A DNA stretch of 64,000 nucleotides. It comes from Chloroflexota bacterium (lineage in GTDB: Bacteria > Chloroflexota > Anaerolineae > Anaerolineales > Villigracilaceae). The position numbers and the translations under genes are program-made. Below, one piece after another: positions 55,932 through 62,250 of the stretch. Within the stretch, counting starts at the first letter, position 1, and each line of letters starts with the position of its first letter. Under the pieces are notes generated by a model that was not told the origin of the DNA, made no database searches, and worked only from the letters and a program-made list of their open reading frames with translations. The stretch spans positions 1-64,000 of the forward strand of contig JAIOAU010000012.1 in the NCBI GenBank assembly GCA_019873655.1, written 5' to 3'.

Positions 55932-55947
55932 GTTGCGAGGCGTATCG

Positions 55948-56973
55948 ATGCCCAAACGTCGCAGTACCAGTTTCGATGTTGCCAGGCTGGCCGGCGTTTC
56001 CCGGACGACCGTCTCGTTTGTGTTGAATAATGTACCTGGGGTCAATATCAGCGAGTCCACCCGTCAGCGGGTTCTCGAAGCGGCGCGTCAACTCAACTAT
56101 CATCCGAATTCCATGGGCCGCAAATTGGTGAGCGGACGGTCCAGCACGCTGGGTCTGGTGCTGCGGCAAAGCCCCGAACAAGTCTTTGCCGACGCGGCCC
56201 TGCTGCGCGTCATGCTGGGGATCGAGCATGCGGTCGCCCAGCAGGGCTTTCATGTGCTCCTCAAGCCTGTCCCTCCCGATGACAACAGCGGCTACCTGCG
56301 CCTGATCGAAGAGAATCATGTGGACGGAATCATCCTCTCCGGTCCGCGCCAGGATGACCACGAGATCGTCGCCCTCCACCGGCAGGGGGTCCCGATCATG
56401 TTGATGGGACAGTTGCCCGGCAGCGAGATTCCGTTCGTGGACATCGACACCATTGCCAGTTCGGCGATGGCTGTGCGTCATTTGCTCGAACAGGGATACC
56501 GGCAGATTGCGATGATCACCAACGCCTCGCTGACCTACACTTCGGCCCAGCAGCGTTACGCCGGTTTCCGGCAGGCCCTGGACGATGCGGGCATCGAATT
56601 TCGAGAGGAGTGGCTGCGGGAGGGGAGTTACACCCCTGCCAGCGGTTTTGAAGCCATGGCCGATTTGCTGCGCCAGCCGCAACGACCGCGGGCCGTTTTC
56701 GTCGCCAGCGATGTGGTGGCGCTGGGCGCGCTTCAAGCGGTCAAGCAGGCCGGGTTGCGAATCCCGGAGGATATTGCTATCGTAGGGTTCGATGACATTC
56801 CCTTTGCCGCGTACTGCGATCCGCCCTTGACGACCGTCCATTTGCCGGCCTACGGACTGGGCTGGGCGGCCGGCGAGCGGCTGGTTCGCCTGGTCTTGAA
56901 CGAGGGGCTGGGCGAGACGGGCCTGCTCCTGGACGCCGAATTGGTGGTCAGAAAGTCGAGCATTTGTCAGTGA
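55948..56973 (+). CDS. LacI-family repressor of the trehalose/alpha-glucoside operon
   Basis: The 341-aa protein has the LacI helix-turn-helix (FDVARLAGVSRTTVSFVLNN, hinge helix NYHPNSMGRKLVSG) and a periplasmic-binding-type sensor domain (GLVLRQSP, VDGIILSGPRQDD, AVFVASDVVALGALQAVKQAGLRIPEDIAIVGFDD). ATG 55948 is favoured (GAGG 7 bases upstream) over TTG 55933. Operators flank the gene on both sides. The inducer is probably the sugar carried by the adjacent transporter. Confidence 0.93.
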   Translation: MPKRRSTSFDVARLAGVSRTTVSFVLNNVPGVNISESTRQRVLEAARQLNYHPNSMGRKLVSGRSSTLGLVLRQSPEQVFADAALLRVMLGIEHAVAQQGFHVLLKPVPPDDNSGYLRLIEENHVDGIILSGPRQDDHEIVALHRQGVPIMLMGQLPGSEIPFVDIDTIASSAMAVRHLLEQGYRQIAMITNASLTYTSAQQRYAGFRQALDDAGIEFREEWLREGSYTPASGFEAMADLLRQPQRPRAVFVASDVVALGALQAVKQAGLRIPEDIAIVGFDDIPFAAYCDPPLTTVHLPAYGLGWAAGERLVRLVLNEGLGETGLLLDAELVVRKSSICQ

Positions 56974-57097: not shown

Positions 57098-58438
57098 ATG
57101 TCCAAGAAAGTTGTCTTTACTCTGCTGGTGGTCGTGGGGATGATGCTGGCTGCTTGCGGCCCGGCGACGACTCCCGAGCCCACCGAGGCCCCGGCGACCG
57201 AAGCGGCGACTGAAGCGCCGACGGAGGCCGCGACCGAAGCGCCCGCCGCGCCCGAAATCTGCATGGGCGCCCAGCCCGGCGACACGGTGACGGTCATGTA
57301 TCAATGGTCCGGCACCGAAGAGGAAAAAATCAACGCCATCCTGGCTCCGCTGGTGGAGACCTGCGGCATTCAGATTGTGGCCGAATCCACCCGCGACGAC
57401 GCTGTCCTCGACGCGCGCGTTCAGAGCCAGCCGCCCGATATTCTGTTCTGGCCGAACATCTCGCCGTTGCGCCTCTACACCGACCGTTTGCAGAACCTGG
57501 ACGCGGTCGGCGCGAACGCCGAGAACTATGCGCCTTACTGGATCGAAATGGGGACGGTGGACGGCCGCTGGCTGGCCATTCCGGTCAAGGCCGACATTAA
57601 GTCGATCATCTGGTACAGCCCGGCTCAGTTCGAATTGTACGGTTATCAAGTCCCGACCACCTTCGAGGAACTCGAGGCCCTGGTCGAGCAGATGGTTGCC
57701 GACGGCAACATTCCGTGGTCGATGGGCATGGAGAGCGGCGCGGCCACCGGCTGGACCGGCTCCGACTTTATCCAGGACTTGCTGCTCGTTCAGCAGGGAC
57801 CGGACTATGTCATGGGCCTGATTGACGGCTCGATTCCGTACAATGATGCGGGCGTCGTTCAGGCTTACGAAACCTACGTCCGCTGGGCCTCTGACCCGCG
57901 CTACACGGTCGGCGGCGCGACCGGCACGCTCAACACCAGTTTCCTGGACGCCATCTACATCACCTTTGCTGAACCGCCTCAGGCGATGATGGTCAAGCAA
58001 TCCGGTTTTGCCGGCGGCGAGATCGTCTCCCGCTACCCGAACCTGGTCTACGGGCAGGATTTCGACTTCTTCCCGTTCCCGGGCGCGCAGGGCATGCAGG
58101 GCGGCGCGGACTTCATGATGGTCTTCAATGATACGCCGGCCGTGCGCGCCGTGGTGGCTTATTTGACCGGTCCGGAGGGCGCGGCCGCCTGGGCGCAGGT
58201 GGGCTTCGACCTCTCGCCCAATCTGCTGGCTACTGGTCAGTATACTGACCCGCAACTGGCCAAGAAGGCCGAGGCGCTGGCGAACGCTTCCGGCTTCACT
58301 CCTGACATGGGCGATACCATCGGCGCGCCGTTTGGCGAGGCCGAGTGGGCGGCCATCATTGCGGCTGTTCAAGGCGAAGATATTCCTACCGTTTTGCAGG
58401 CCGCTGCCGCGGCTCAGGCAGAAGCGCTCGGCCGCTAG
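57098..58438 (+). CDS. Sugar-binding lipoprotein of an ABC importer
   Basis: The 446-aa solute-binding protein has a lipobox MMLAACG, a Thr/Glu/Ala/Pro-rich linker (about 25-53) and a family 1 sugar-binding fold (PDILFWPNISPLRLY, AIPVKADIKSIIWYSPAQFELYGYQVPTTFEELEAL, a maltose/trehalose-binding-protein-like arrangement). It starts at ATG 57098 behind AAGGAGGAA. TreS in the same operon points to trehalose or maltose as ligand. A stem-loop follows the gene. Confidence 0.93.
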   Translation: MSKKVVFTLLVVVGMMLAACGPATTPEPTEAPATEAATEAPTEAATEAPAAPEICMGAQPGDTVTVMYQWSGTEEEKINAILAPLVETCGIQIVAESTRDDAVLDARVQSQPPDILFWPNISPLRLYTDRLQNLDAVGANAENYAPYWIEMGTVDGRWLAIPVKADIKSIIWYSPAQFELYGYQVPTTFEELEALVEQMVADGNIPWSMGMESGAATGWTGSDFIQDLLLVQQGPDYVMGLIDGSIPYNDAGVVQAYETYVRWASDPRYTVGGATGTLNTSFLDAIYITFAEPPQAMMVKQSGFAGGEIVSRYPNLVYGQDFDFFPFPGAQGMQGGADFMMVFNDTPAVRAVVAYLTGPEGAAAWAQVGFDLSPNLLATGQYTDPQLAKKAEALANASGFTPDMGDTIGAPFGEAEWAAIIAAVQGEDIPTVLQAAAAAQAEALGR

Positions 58439-58505: not shown

Positions 58506-59417
58506 ATGGCCTCCTCGATCATGAAGCAGGGACGGTTGACGCCGTGGCTGTATTTATTGCCGGCGCTTGTCATCATGTTCATTTTCATCGTTTATCCAAC
58601 GTTCAACACCATTTATCTGAGTTTTCTCGATAAGACCAGCACTCAACCGGCGTCCGTCAATTGCGTCGAGGGGCAGCCATGCTGGGGCATCTTCGAAAAT
58701 TATCATTACGCTCTGACCAACCCCGAAATGGTCACCGCGCTGCGCAACAATGCCCGCTGGCTGCTGCTGATGGTGCCGGGGACGGTCCTGTGCGGTCTGT
58801 TCTTTGCGGTGCTGGCCGACCGGGTGCGATACGAAAGCCTGGCCAAATCGATCATTTTCATGCCGATGGCCATTTCGTTCATCGGAGCGGGCATCATCTG
58901 GCGTTTCGTTTACTATATCGAGACCGGCAGCGGCGAACAGATCGGCTTGCTCAACGCCATCCTGGTCGCTCTGGGACGTCAGCCAGTGGCGTTTCTGAGC
59001 AATCCGGCCATCAACAATTATGCGCTCATGCTCGTTGGCGTCTGGTTGTGGGCCGGGTTCTGTATGACGATCTTATCGGCGGCCATTAAAGGCTTGCCGT
59101 CCGAGGTCCTGGAAGCGGCGCGGGTGGATGGAGCCAGCGAATGGCAACTGTTCTTCCAGATTATGTTGCCCATGATTATGCCGACCATCGCCGTGGTGAC
59201 GACCACGATGGTCATCAATGTGTTGAAGATTTTCGACATCGTCTTTGTCATGACCGGCGGCAATTTCGGCACCGAGGTGATCGCTAACCGCATGTTCACC
59301 TTGATCGTGACCGACACCGGCCGTTCGATGGCGATCGCGGTGGTGCTCATCCTCCTGACCGTCCCGATCATGATCTTCAATGTGTATCGCTTCCGCAAGC
59401 AGGAGGAGATGGCATGA
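58506..59417 (+). CDS. Sugar ABC transporter permease 1 (MalF-like)
   Basis: The 303-aa inner-membrane protein has six helices and the cytoplasmic EAA loop LPSEVLEAARVDGASEWQLFFQIMLPMIMP that contacts the ATPase. The first outer loop holds a pair of Cys (NCVEGQPCWG). It overlaps permease 2 by 4 bases. No ATPase gene lies in this operon, so a shared MsmX-type ATPase encoded elsewhere must serve it. Confidence 0.94.
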   Translation: MASSIMKQGRLTPWLYLLPALVIMFIFIVYPTFNTIYLSFLDKTSTQPASVNCVEGQPCWGIFENYHYALTNPEMVTALRNNARWLLLMVPGTVLCGLFFAVLADRVRYESLAKSIIFMPMAISFIGAGIIWRFVYYIETGSGEQIGLLNAILVALGRQPVAFLSNPAINNYALMLVGVWLWAGFCMTILSAAIKGLPSEVLEAARVDGASEWQLFFQIMLPMIMPTIAVVTTTMVINVLKIFDIVFVMTGGNFGTEVIANRMFTLIVTDTGRSMAIAVVLILLTVPIMIFNVYRFRKQEEMA

Positions 59418-60628
59418 AACCGCTGACGGGTCTCAACCGCTTCTTTCGCAATTTGCCTACCCACCTGGCGATCGTGACGATGTGCGTCTTGTGGATCATT
59501 CCCACCCTGGGCCTGTTCATCACCTCGCTGCGGCCGCGCGAGGCCGTCCGCACCAGCGGCTGGTGGACGGTTTTCCGCCCCCAGGTTCAGGTGGGGGAGA
59601 CAGAGTACCGAACCTATTGCGCCTCCTGTCACGGCGTGGACGGCGACGCCATCGCCGCGGCCGATTTGAGCGACCCGGCGGTCGTCTCGGCCTACCCGCG
59701 CTCCAACCGGCTGTTGACCATGCTCCGGCGCGACCTCGAAAGCGGCCCCCATCTTGTTGACCCGCCTCTGCCTGCGGAGCCGAACGCCGCCCTCGAGGTT
59801 TTGTCGCCCATTGTGACCTACCTGCAAACGCTTTCTGGAATCAACCCCGAAGCCGAGCGCTTTACCCTGCGCAATTACGCCGACGCCTTGGTCGGTTACA
59901 AGGGCAGTCAGGATTACCTGACCGATTGCGAACAAGGCGTGGTCAGCACGCTGGCCAAGTTCGATTGCGACGCCAGCGACCTGCTGAAACCGGAGGGGAT
60001 GGGGCGCGCCTTTGTGAACACGCTCATCATGGCCATTCCCTCGACCATTTTGCCCATTGTCTTTGCCGCGCTGGCCGCCTATGCCTTTGCCTGGATGGAT
60101 TTCAAGGGCCGTCAGTGGATTTTTGCCCTGCTGGTCGGACTGCAAATCGTCCCGTTGCAGATGACTCTCGTCCCGATTGCCCGCCTGTACGTGCAGATTG
60201 GCCTCGCAGGCACCTTCTTGGGCATCTGGCTGTTCCATACCGGCTTTGGGCTGCCGTATGCCATCTATCTGATGCGCAATTTCATCGGCGGCCTGCCGCG
60301 CGAAATTTTCGAATCGGCCTATCTGGATGGCGCGAATCACTGGACTGCTTTTTGCAAACTCGTCCTGCCGCTCACTTTGCCGGCCATCGCTTCGCTGGGC
60401 ATTTTCCAGTTCCTGTGGGTGTGGAACGACTTTCTGGTGGCCAAAGTGTTCCTGAGCACGCATCCGGTCCTGACGGTGCAGGTGACCAATCTGATCGACC
60501 CGCGCGGGGCCAACTGGCACATTCTGACCGGAGCGGCTTTCCTTTCCTTCATCATCCCCATGATCGTCTTCTTTGCCTTCCAGCGGTATTTCGTGCGCGG
60601 CCTGTTGGCCGGTTCGGTGAAAGGATAG
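59414..60628 (+). CDS. Sugar ABC transporter permease 2 (MalG-like) with an embedded cytochrome c domain
   Basis: The 404-aa protein is a MalG-type permease (first helix about 18-38; EAA loop [30 protein letters not shown]; six helices in all). Its first outer loop is greatly enlarged. Residues about 58-143 read like a class I cytochrome c: [19 protein letters not shown] with the heme motif C69-x-x-C72-H73, and the domain-ending [12 protein letters not shown]. The frame then returns to the normal [10 protein letters not shown] of these permeases. A typical distal Met is not obvious (M103 or H113 are candidates). The loop faces outward, where c-heme is attached, so a heme-carrying transporter is plausible. 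Role unknown: redox sensing or gating is speculation. Confidence 0.92.
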
Positions 60629-60651: not shown

Positions 60652-62250
60652 ATGGATGTTCAACCCTGGTACAAGAACGCCGTCTTCTACGAGGTCTACG
60701 TCCGCGCTTTTTTCGATGGCAACGGCGACGGACATGGCGACCTGCAGGGACTGACCCAGAAACTGGATTACTTTCAGGAACTCGGCGTTGACTGCCTCTG
60801 GCTCATGCCGATTTACCCCTCGCCGCTCAAGGACGATGGGTATGACATCTCGGACTATTACGGCATCCACCCCGATTACGGCACGCTCGAGGATTTCCGC
60901 GCCCTGCTCGACGCCGCCCACGCCCGCGGCCTGCGCATCATCACCGACCTGGTGGTGAATCACACCTCCGATCAACATCCCTGGTTTCAGGCGGCCCGCC
61001 GCGACCGTCATTCTCCCTATCGGGATTACTACGTCTGGAGCGATGACCCTTCGCGGTACGCGGATGCCCGCATCATCTTCCTGGATACCGAGACATCCAA
61101 TTGGACTTTTGATTCCCTGGCCGGACAATATTACTGGCATCGTTTTTATTCTTCCCAGCCCGACTTGAACTATGACAACCCGGCTGTGCGGCTCGAAATG
61201 CTCAAGGTGATGAAATTCTGGCTGGACCTGGGGGTGGACGGTTTTCGCGTCGATGCAGTTCCCTATCTCTTCGAAAGGGAGGGGACGAATTGCGAGAATT
61301 TGCCGGAGACGCACGCCTATCTCAAGAAAATGCGCCGCTTTGTCGATGAGCATTATCCCGACCGCATTCTCCTCTGCGAAGCCAATCAATGGCCGCGCGA
61401 TGTGCGCGCGTATTTCGGGCGCGGAGACGAATTCCACATGGCCTTTCACTTTCCGCTGATGCCGCGCTTGTTCATGGCCATCCGCCGCGGCGACTCCGAG
61501 CCTATTCGCTGGGTGCTCTCGGAAACGCCTCCTATTCCCCCTTCCTGCCAGTGGTGCACGTTCCTGCGCAATCACGACGAATTGACCCTCGAAATGGTCT
61601 CCGAAGAAGAGCGCCAGTGGATGTGGCAAGAATACGCCCCCGACCCGCGCATGCGCCTCAACCTGGGCATTCGTCGCCGTCTGGCCCCTCTGCTCGATGA
61701 TGACCGCCGCAAAATAACGCTGGCCTACTCTCTGCTCTTTACGTTGCCCGGTTCTCCAATCATCTACTATGGGGATGAAATTGGCATGGGCGACGATCTG
61801 TCTTTGCCCGACCGGAACGGCGTGCGCACGCCCATGCAGTGGGAGGCGGGACCCTCGGCCGGTTTCTCGACCGCCCGCGACCTCTACAGCCCGATTGTCA
61901 ACCCGCATATTAACGTCGCTGCCCAGCGCGCCGACCCGGCCTCGCTCTGGCAAACAATTCGCAAGATGATTGCGGTTCGCAAATCTCATCCTGCTCTCGG
62001 CGGCGGCGAAATCGCCTGGATCGAGTATGAAAACCGCAGCATTGCTGCTTATCTGCGCACGCTGGGGGACAGTCAGTTGTTGATCGTGAACAATTTGAGC
62101 GGCGCGCCGCAATCGGTCCGCCTGCCGTTCCCGGGCCAGCCTTTCCAGGATGTGCTGACCGGCCGCGTCTTTGATCCCCAAGGCGGGACGGCGGAAGTGA
62201 ACTTATCGCCCTATGAGTATTGCTGGCTGAATTTATTGGAGCCAGTCTGA
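60652..62250 (+). CDS. treS: Trehalose synthase (GH13, maltose alpha-D-glucosyltransferase)
   Basis: The 532-aa enzyme interconverts maltose and trehalose. GH13 regions: [22 protein letters not shown] (nucleophile Asp), EANQWP (acid/base Glu) and LRNHDE. The TreS hallmark [17 protein letters not shown]...[18 protein letters not shown] is present. ATG 60652 is chosen because the family begins [17 protein letters not shown]; a much longer frame from 59926 overlaps the permease gene. It is the last gene of the operon and processes the imported disaccharide. The maltokinase domain found fused in some TreS is absent. Confidence 0.94.

Follow-up and report, generated by a model that had tools for sequence, protein, structure and literature searches.

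So far as is known, ABC importers are regulated through cytoplasmic domains or partner proteins. The closest described systems to the transporter considered here are type I importers such as MalFGK2, LpqY-SugABC and AglEFG, which share with it the permease core, the fold and an operon that includes a binding protein, a MalF-type partner and a GH13 enzyme. The difference lies in the outer loop between the first two transmembrane helices (TM1-TM2), which has ~20 residues in mycobacterial SugB, whereas here it has ~145 and holds both a cytochrome c-like domain and an insert with a Cys pair; in alphaproteobacterial AglG a different loop, without CxxCH, occupies this place. For a cytochrome joined to carbohydrate-related proteins, the closest parallel is offered by X183, c-type heme domains that Teredinibacter and Cellvibrio carry on extracellular carbohydrate-related proteins (PMC10916295). 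In both cases a cytochrome domain is joined to carbohydrate-related proteins outside the cell, with the heme predicted in ours, and TtX183A was among our structural and sequence matches, but the arrangement differs, as X183 has His/Met ligands and is carried on large secreted multidomain proteins rather than on an importer. Among heme-linked ABC transporters the nearest is CydDC, again with a different arrangement, since it presumably has an exporter fold and no CxxCH cytochrome domain. This heterodimeric ABC transporter is reported to bind or transport heme, which acts as modulator or transported substrate, so that the common point is an ABC transporter associated with heme (PMC4132815, PMC10374445).

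The locus lies in a stretch of Chloroflexota DNA of 64,000 nucleotides, the whole of which is referred to here as the window; all features described in it are on the + strand. The sequence-only reading that singled out the locus knew of no described case, and in the open-access literature of PMC we found no ABC importer permease described as having a cytochrome domain and no sugar importer whose membrane subunit was reported to hold a covalent redox cofactor. If the heme is attached, a single polypeptide would link sugar uptake to redox chemistry, in a bacterial class that is widespread but poorly understood. Retention of the domain across dozens of species of mostly anaerobic bacteria suggests that sugar import may be tied to redox chemistry in these cells.

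The permease and its operon

The permease gene (59414..60628) encodes 404 aa in a stop-free frame, with an ATG that overlaps the stop codon of the preceding MalF gene (ATGA), and the translation agreed with the earlier placement of CASCH at residues 69-73 and TYLQTLSG at residues 135-142. BPD_transp_1 matched residues 216-396 with 45.6 bits (cut-off 26.4). The core formed by transmembrane helices 2-6 (59999..60625, residues 196-404) was matched to SugB and MalG by Pfam, PDB and Foldseek searches, the Foldseek E-values of the permease against these two proteins being ~1e-7 to 1e-6. By every feature tested the protein belongs to the MalG/AglG family. The first transmembrane helix (59453..59524, residues 14-37), placed by AlphaFold secondary structure and hydropathy, is followed by an outer loop of ~145-150 residues. 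AlphaFold modeled the full-length permease with moderate confidence (pLDDT 72, pTM 0.51), at which the orientation of the inserted domain relative to the binding protein is not fixed. A frameshift or wrong strand was considered and rejected; the reverse strand is also open here, but it is the + frame that has a conserved protein and a signal of purifying selection.

Overlooked by the sequence-only reading was a second insert in the outer loop (59879..59983), which has ~35 residues (~156-190) and includes Cys172 and Cys185. Both cysteines are invariant (47/47 homologues) and a disulfide between them is probable. The same insert is also present in relatives that have no cytochrome domain (L026-L029 and L145).

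Upstream of the permease are genes for a LacI-family regulator (55933..56973; NCBIfam LacI-family models), a sugar-binding lipoprotein (57098..58438; SBP_bac_1, 45.2 bits, cut-off 26) and the MalF-type partner permease (58506..59417; BPD_transp_1, 64.3 bits), all three assignments being supported by synteny, and downstream is a TreS-type maltose alpha-D-glucosyltransferase of family GH13 (60652..62250; TIGR02456, 829.9 bits, equivalog cut-off 678.35). The order LacI, binding protein, MalF, MalG with the cytochrome domain and TreS was found in most carriers with flanking sequence and also in the domain-less L026-L029; alphaproteobacterial plasmids have a comparable gene order with an alpha-glucosidase. 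Given the TreS neighbor, the substrate is probably an alpha-glucoside of the maltose or trehalose class. No ATPase gene was found among the operon genes examined, and a shared ATPase is assumed; nor was a redox enzyme able to set the state of the domain recognized in the operon. Carriers and non-carriers alike conserve one cysteine pair in the outer portion of MalF (C53, C59) and another in the binding protein (C74, C108). As candidate redox partners of the domain these pairs were rejected because they are equally conserved in non-carriers, and they are probably ordinary disulfides.

The inserted domain and its probable heme site

The cytochrome c-like domain spans 59582..59842 (residues ~57-143), and its location in the TM1-TM2 loop is supported by AlphaFold secondary structure and hydropathy. 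That such a domain lies in frame in the first outer loop had been proposed from the window alone, and this was borne out by the open frame and by PF13442 and PF00034, both of which match all 25 homologous domains in our alignment A2 (E<=1). The Pfam search suggested at that time was positive for BPD_transp_1, but neither cytochrome model reached its threshold on the protein of the window, where the matches lay mostly around CxxCH: PF13442 scored 19.0 bits on the full protein and 21.9 bits on the excised loop (cut-off 27), and PF00034 scored 15.1 and 18.5 bits (cut-off 21.3). Several homologous domains exceeded the curated cut-offs, some over nearly the whole model, for example with 31.5 bits for PF13442 and 30.2 bits for PF00034 (profile positions 3-88 of 90). 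When a profile of the domain was compared with the PDB, the best matches were CcoP subunits of cbb3 oxidases. With class-I cytochromes c and the Cytochrome_CBB3 family (PF13442, PF00034; e.g. CcoP) the domain shares Y-x3-CxxCHG, short helices and a terminal helix with YL-x-x-L, and it differs from them in having His rather than Met at the distal position, in being embedded in a transporter loop, and in forming a subfamily confined to the permease in the 298 genomes surveyed.

Structure prediction had also been proposed, and AlphaFold folded the domain by itself (59558-59869) with a mean pLDDT of 85.7 and a pTM of 0.75. All 16 Foldseek matches of this model in the PDB at E<=10 were c-type cytochromes or complexes containing one, including the M58H mutant of cytochrome c6; individually the matches are weak, with a best E of 1.2 and none significant singly, so the outcome is consistent with a cytochrome c fold rather than decisive for it.

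The heme-attachment motif CASCH (59618..59632) supplies C69, C72 and H73, and CxxCH was found in 47/47 homologues. The distal Met typical of class I is absent and there is instead a conserved His113 (59750..59752), the proposed distal axial ligand. Because some c-type cytochromes are bis-His, this replacement bears on the class of the cytochrome and not on heme binding. In two short-form domains (L020, L106) H113 stands 19 residues (inclusive) before the terminal-helix tyrosine, and in the genome's own cytochromes the corresponding spacing from axial Met to terminal-helix aromatic is 19 in one and 17, 18 and 22 in others; when the count is made from the opposite side, H113 falls one residue behind the Met of CcoP in the profile alignment. 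Sequence comparison thus places H113 at or adjoining the axial Met position of class-I cytochromes, which makes bis-His ligation, with H73 proximal and H113 distal, the likely arrangement. Covalent attachment of a heme to the permease domain is, we infer, very probable.

We take the permease family to be N-in, which would put the TM1-TM2 loop on the side where Ccm attaches heme. The window's genome is 99.8% complete and encodes CcmF- and CcmC-like proteins, the maturation system that was to be looked for. At least one Ccm-family match above cut-off was present in 42/42 relatives' genomes, including those without the insert, so Ccm was rejected as a discriminator: it is necessary but not informative for the presence of the domain.

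Conservation, distribution and history

Homologues with the same loop, which the sequence-only reading had advised looking for, number 47 distinct proteins after removal of duplicates, and these formed our conservation set. C69, C72, H73, G74 and L100 are invariant (47/47), G77 is kept in 98%, and H113 is also kept in 98% (46/47), the exception (L022) having a His two residues earlier. Occurrence of CxxCHG in all 47 is far beyond chance. Averaged over columns, the commonest residue reached a frequency of 0.82 in the permease core, as against 0.63 in the second insert and 0.55 in the cytochrome domain, whose surface is poorly conserved; by this measure the domain evolves fast yet retains its heme site. 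In 12 pairs, Nei-Gojobori dN/dS ranged from 0.05 to 0.25 in the domain and from 0.00 to 0.08 in the permease, indicating purifying selection of the domain, although dS was saturated in some pairs. We regard it as established that a transporter subunit has long kept, on the correct side of the membrane, both the site for heme attachment and a second His of the axial type. Cytochrome profile matches, relatives with the insert and maturation genes, the absence of which had been named in advance as counting against the proposal (for the relatives, together with signs of a chimera), were thus all found.

In a scan of GTDB genome contigs the insert turned up at 25 loci, every one of them labelled Chloroflexota and most of them Anaerolineae; the isolate Levilinea saccharolytica KIBI-1 supplied two of them, as identical copies. 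With a profile of the N-terminal half, a draw of 396 genomes of the class yielded 26 with the insert, each having CxxCH and together representing 13 family-level groups. In a 400-genome draw from the phylum, full-length matches were restricted to the window's own family, and matches outside the class stopped by profile position 88, covering mainly TM1. A profile of the domain itself, searched against 298 class genomes at E<=1e-6, had no match outside the permease, which points to a subfamily of its own without a visible donor and to a job tied to the transporter.

In a tree built on the permease core with the insert excluded, the 47 carriers and six non-carriers (L026-L030 and L145) formed one clade (100/99). 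The non-carriers were nested among the carriers, implying one gain and one loss, but an AU test did not reject trees that set all carriers apart as one clade (p 0.10 and 0.22). On the tree obtained the domain arose once and was probably lost at least once. Since the operon or permease is still present in the six non-carriers, transport presumably works without the domain. In L145 (L145:2845-3792, from CP069395.1), which belongs to a 180-kb plasmid from a Chloroflexota of a cold seep, the permease is cleanly without the cytochrome domain and keeps the Cys-pair insert. In Brevefilum (L030:6049-6819) just 257 aa of the permease are left, TM1 and the loop being gone, and this remnant follows another complete MalG-like gene.

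Differing non-heme inserts were seen in the same outer loop of L032, the Spirochaetales L039 and L044, and the alphaproteobacterial AglG proteins L146 and L147, and no Pfam domain was found in the inserts of L032 and L039. The idea that the window's insert is a general AglG loop was set aside, as the inserts of alphaproteobacterial AglG, Spirochaetales and L032 at the same place have no CxxCH and are not recognizably related. From these sequences the TM1-TM2 outer loop looks like an insertion hot spot in the permease family.

Possible roles of the domain

In the mechanism that we favor, tentatively, the MalG subunit of a type I ABC importer of an alpha-glucoside would carry, in its TM1-TM2 loop and so on the outer side of the membrane, a covalent c-type heme domain, with the heme attached via C69 and C72, H73 as proximal ligand and H113 most likely as distal ligand. 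Extracellular redox conditions or a donor would set the oxidation state of the heme, and this state would tune import by changing the contact between the loop and the binding protein or permease. The domain as a redox-responsive modulator of alpha-glucoside import is our first choice because in the 298 genomes it was found only within the permease, persists where few other cytochromes were detected, and sits on the outer side, where in this family the binding protein presumably docks. Its poorly conserved surface is a poor fit to a tight gating interface. The more specific proposition, that the redox state of a covalent bis-His heme on the outer loop sets the transport rate of the importer, is possible but more doubtful. 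If redox control is the true reading, nutrient import would be under direct redox control at the cell surface.

A coupling of uptake to redox state or to an electron donor, as the sequence-only reading proposed, has rivals of similar weight, and two of the rivals to redox modulation are serious. One makes the heme a structural cross-link that holds together a compact domain in touch with the binding protein, the cell wall or a partner, its redox state being irrelevant. Conservation concentrated at the heme-binding residues, the poorly conserved surface and the losses all suit such a docking domain, as do the conserved Cys pair in the same loop and the unrelated inserts that relatives (L032, L039/L044, L146/L147) carry there; we nonetheless consider it unlikely, because heme attachment is costly for mere structure and the distal His is nearly as invariant as the residues that attach the heme.

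In the other serious rival the main service of the permease is to anchor in the membrane a cytochrome that faces outward and relays electrons, with membrane carriers on one side and an extracellular acceptor, donor or sugar-active redox enzyme on the other. Fusions of cytochrome c domains to extracellular carbohydrate proteins have a precedent in X183 (PMC10916295), and other PF13442 cytochromes were found in 19/25 carriers and in none of the five domain-less genomes sampled (L026-L030), although these five are one lineage and their lack of PF13442 counts as one event at most. The window's genome has four other PF13442 matches in three frames and an NrfA-type nitrite reductase, and no heme-copper oxidase was detected in it. 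Across the carriers a heme-copper oxidase was matched in 11/25 and not detected in 14/25, and in six (G007, G008, G009, G013, G015 and G018), mostly incomplete MAGs, the permease was the sole PF13442 match; five of these six also had no NrfA match, in searches that covered PF13442 and NrfA among the multiheme and other cytochrome families. Retention of the domain in these 14 and six genomes argues against a simple respiratory carrier. One cytochrome per transporter would be an odd stoichiometry for a relay, the surface is poorly conserved, and the domain was not seen apart from the permease in 298 genomes; we judge this alternative unlikely as well, a little more so than docking. The window's genome also encodes, in another region (L093, G000 C1:80414), a protein that joins membrane helices and two CxxCH motifs and resembles a cytochrome b-c fusion.

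Heme c sensor domains exist in other proteins, and with its outer location the domain might respond to O2, NO, CO or sulfide, which would displace the distal His and alter transport; a second conserved axial ligand usually lowers ligand affinity and specific support was not found, which makes a gas or small-ligand sensor improbable. That the loop is degenerate and has lost heme binding would agree with the sub-threshold Pfam scores of the window protein, but is very improbable in view of CxxCH in 47/47 homologues, the distal His in 46/47, dN/dS well below 1 and the presence of Ccm. An assembly chimera or frameshift artefact is refuted by 46 further distinct sequences that share the architecture and come from many assemblies, among them that of the isolate Levilinea saccharolytica.

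As a cultured isolate, Levilinea saccharolytica makes the proposed link between sugar uptake and redox chemistry testable now. Its two operon copies (L005, L006) lie in opposite orientation on one contig (NZ_LGCM01000045.1) and are identical over at least 9,180 bases, which may be a true duplication or an assembly artefact. At three loci (L006:2352-4934, L011:1089-3635 and L015:2953-5472) the binding protein is tandem-duplicated, two complete binding domains being fused in a protein of 840-861 aa.
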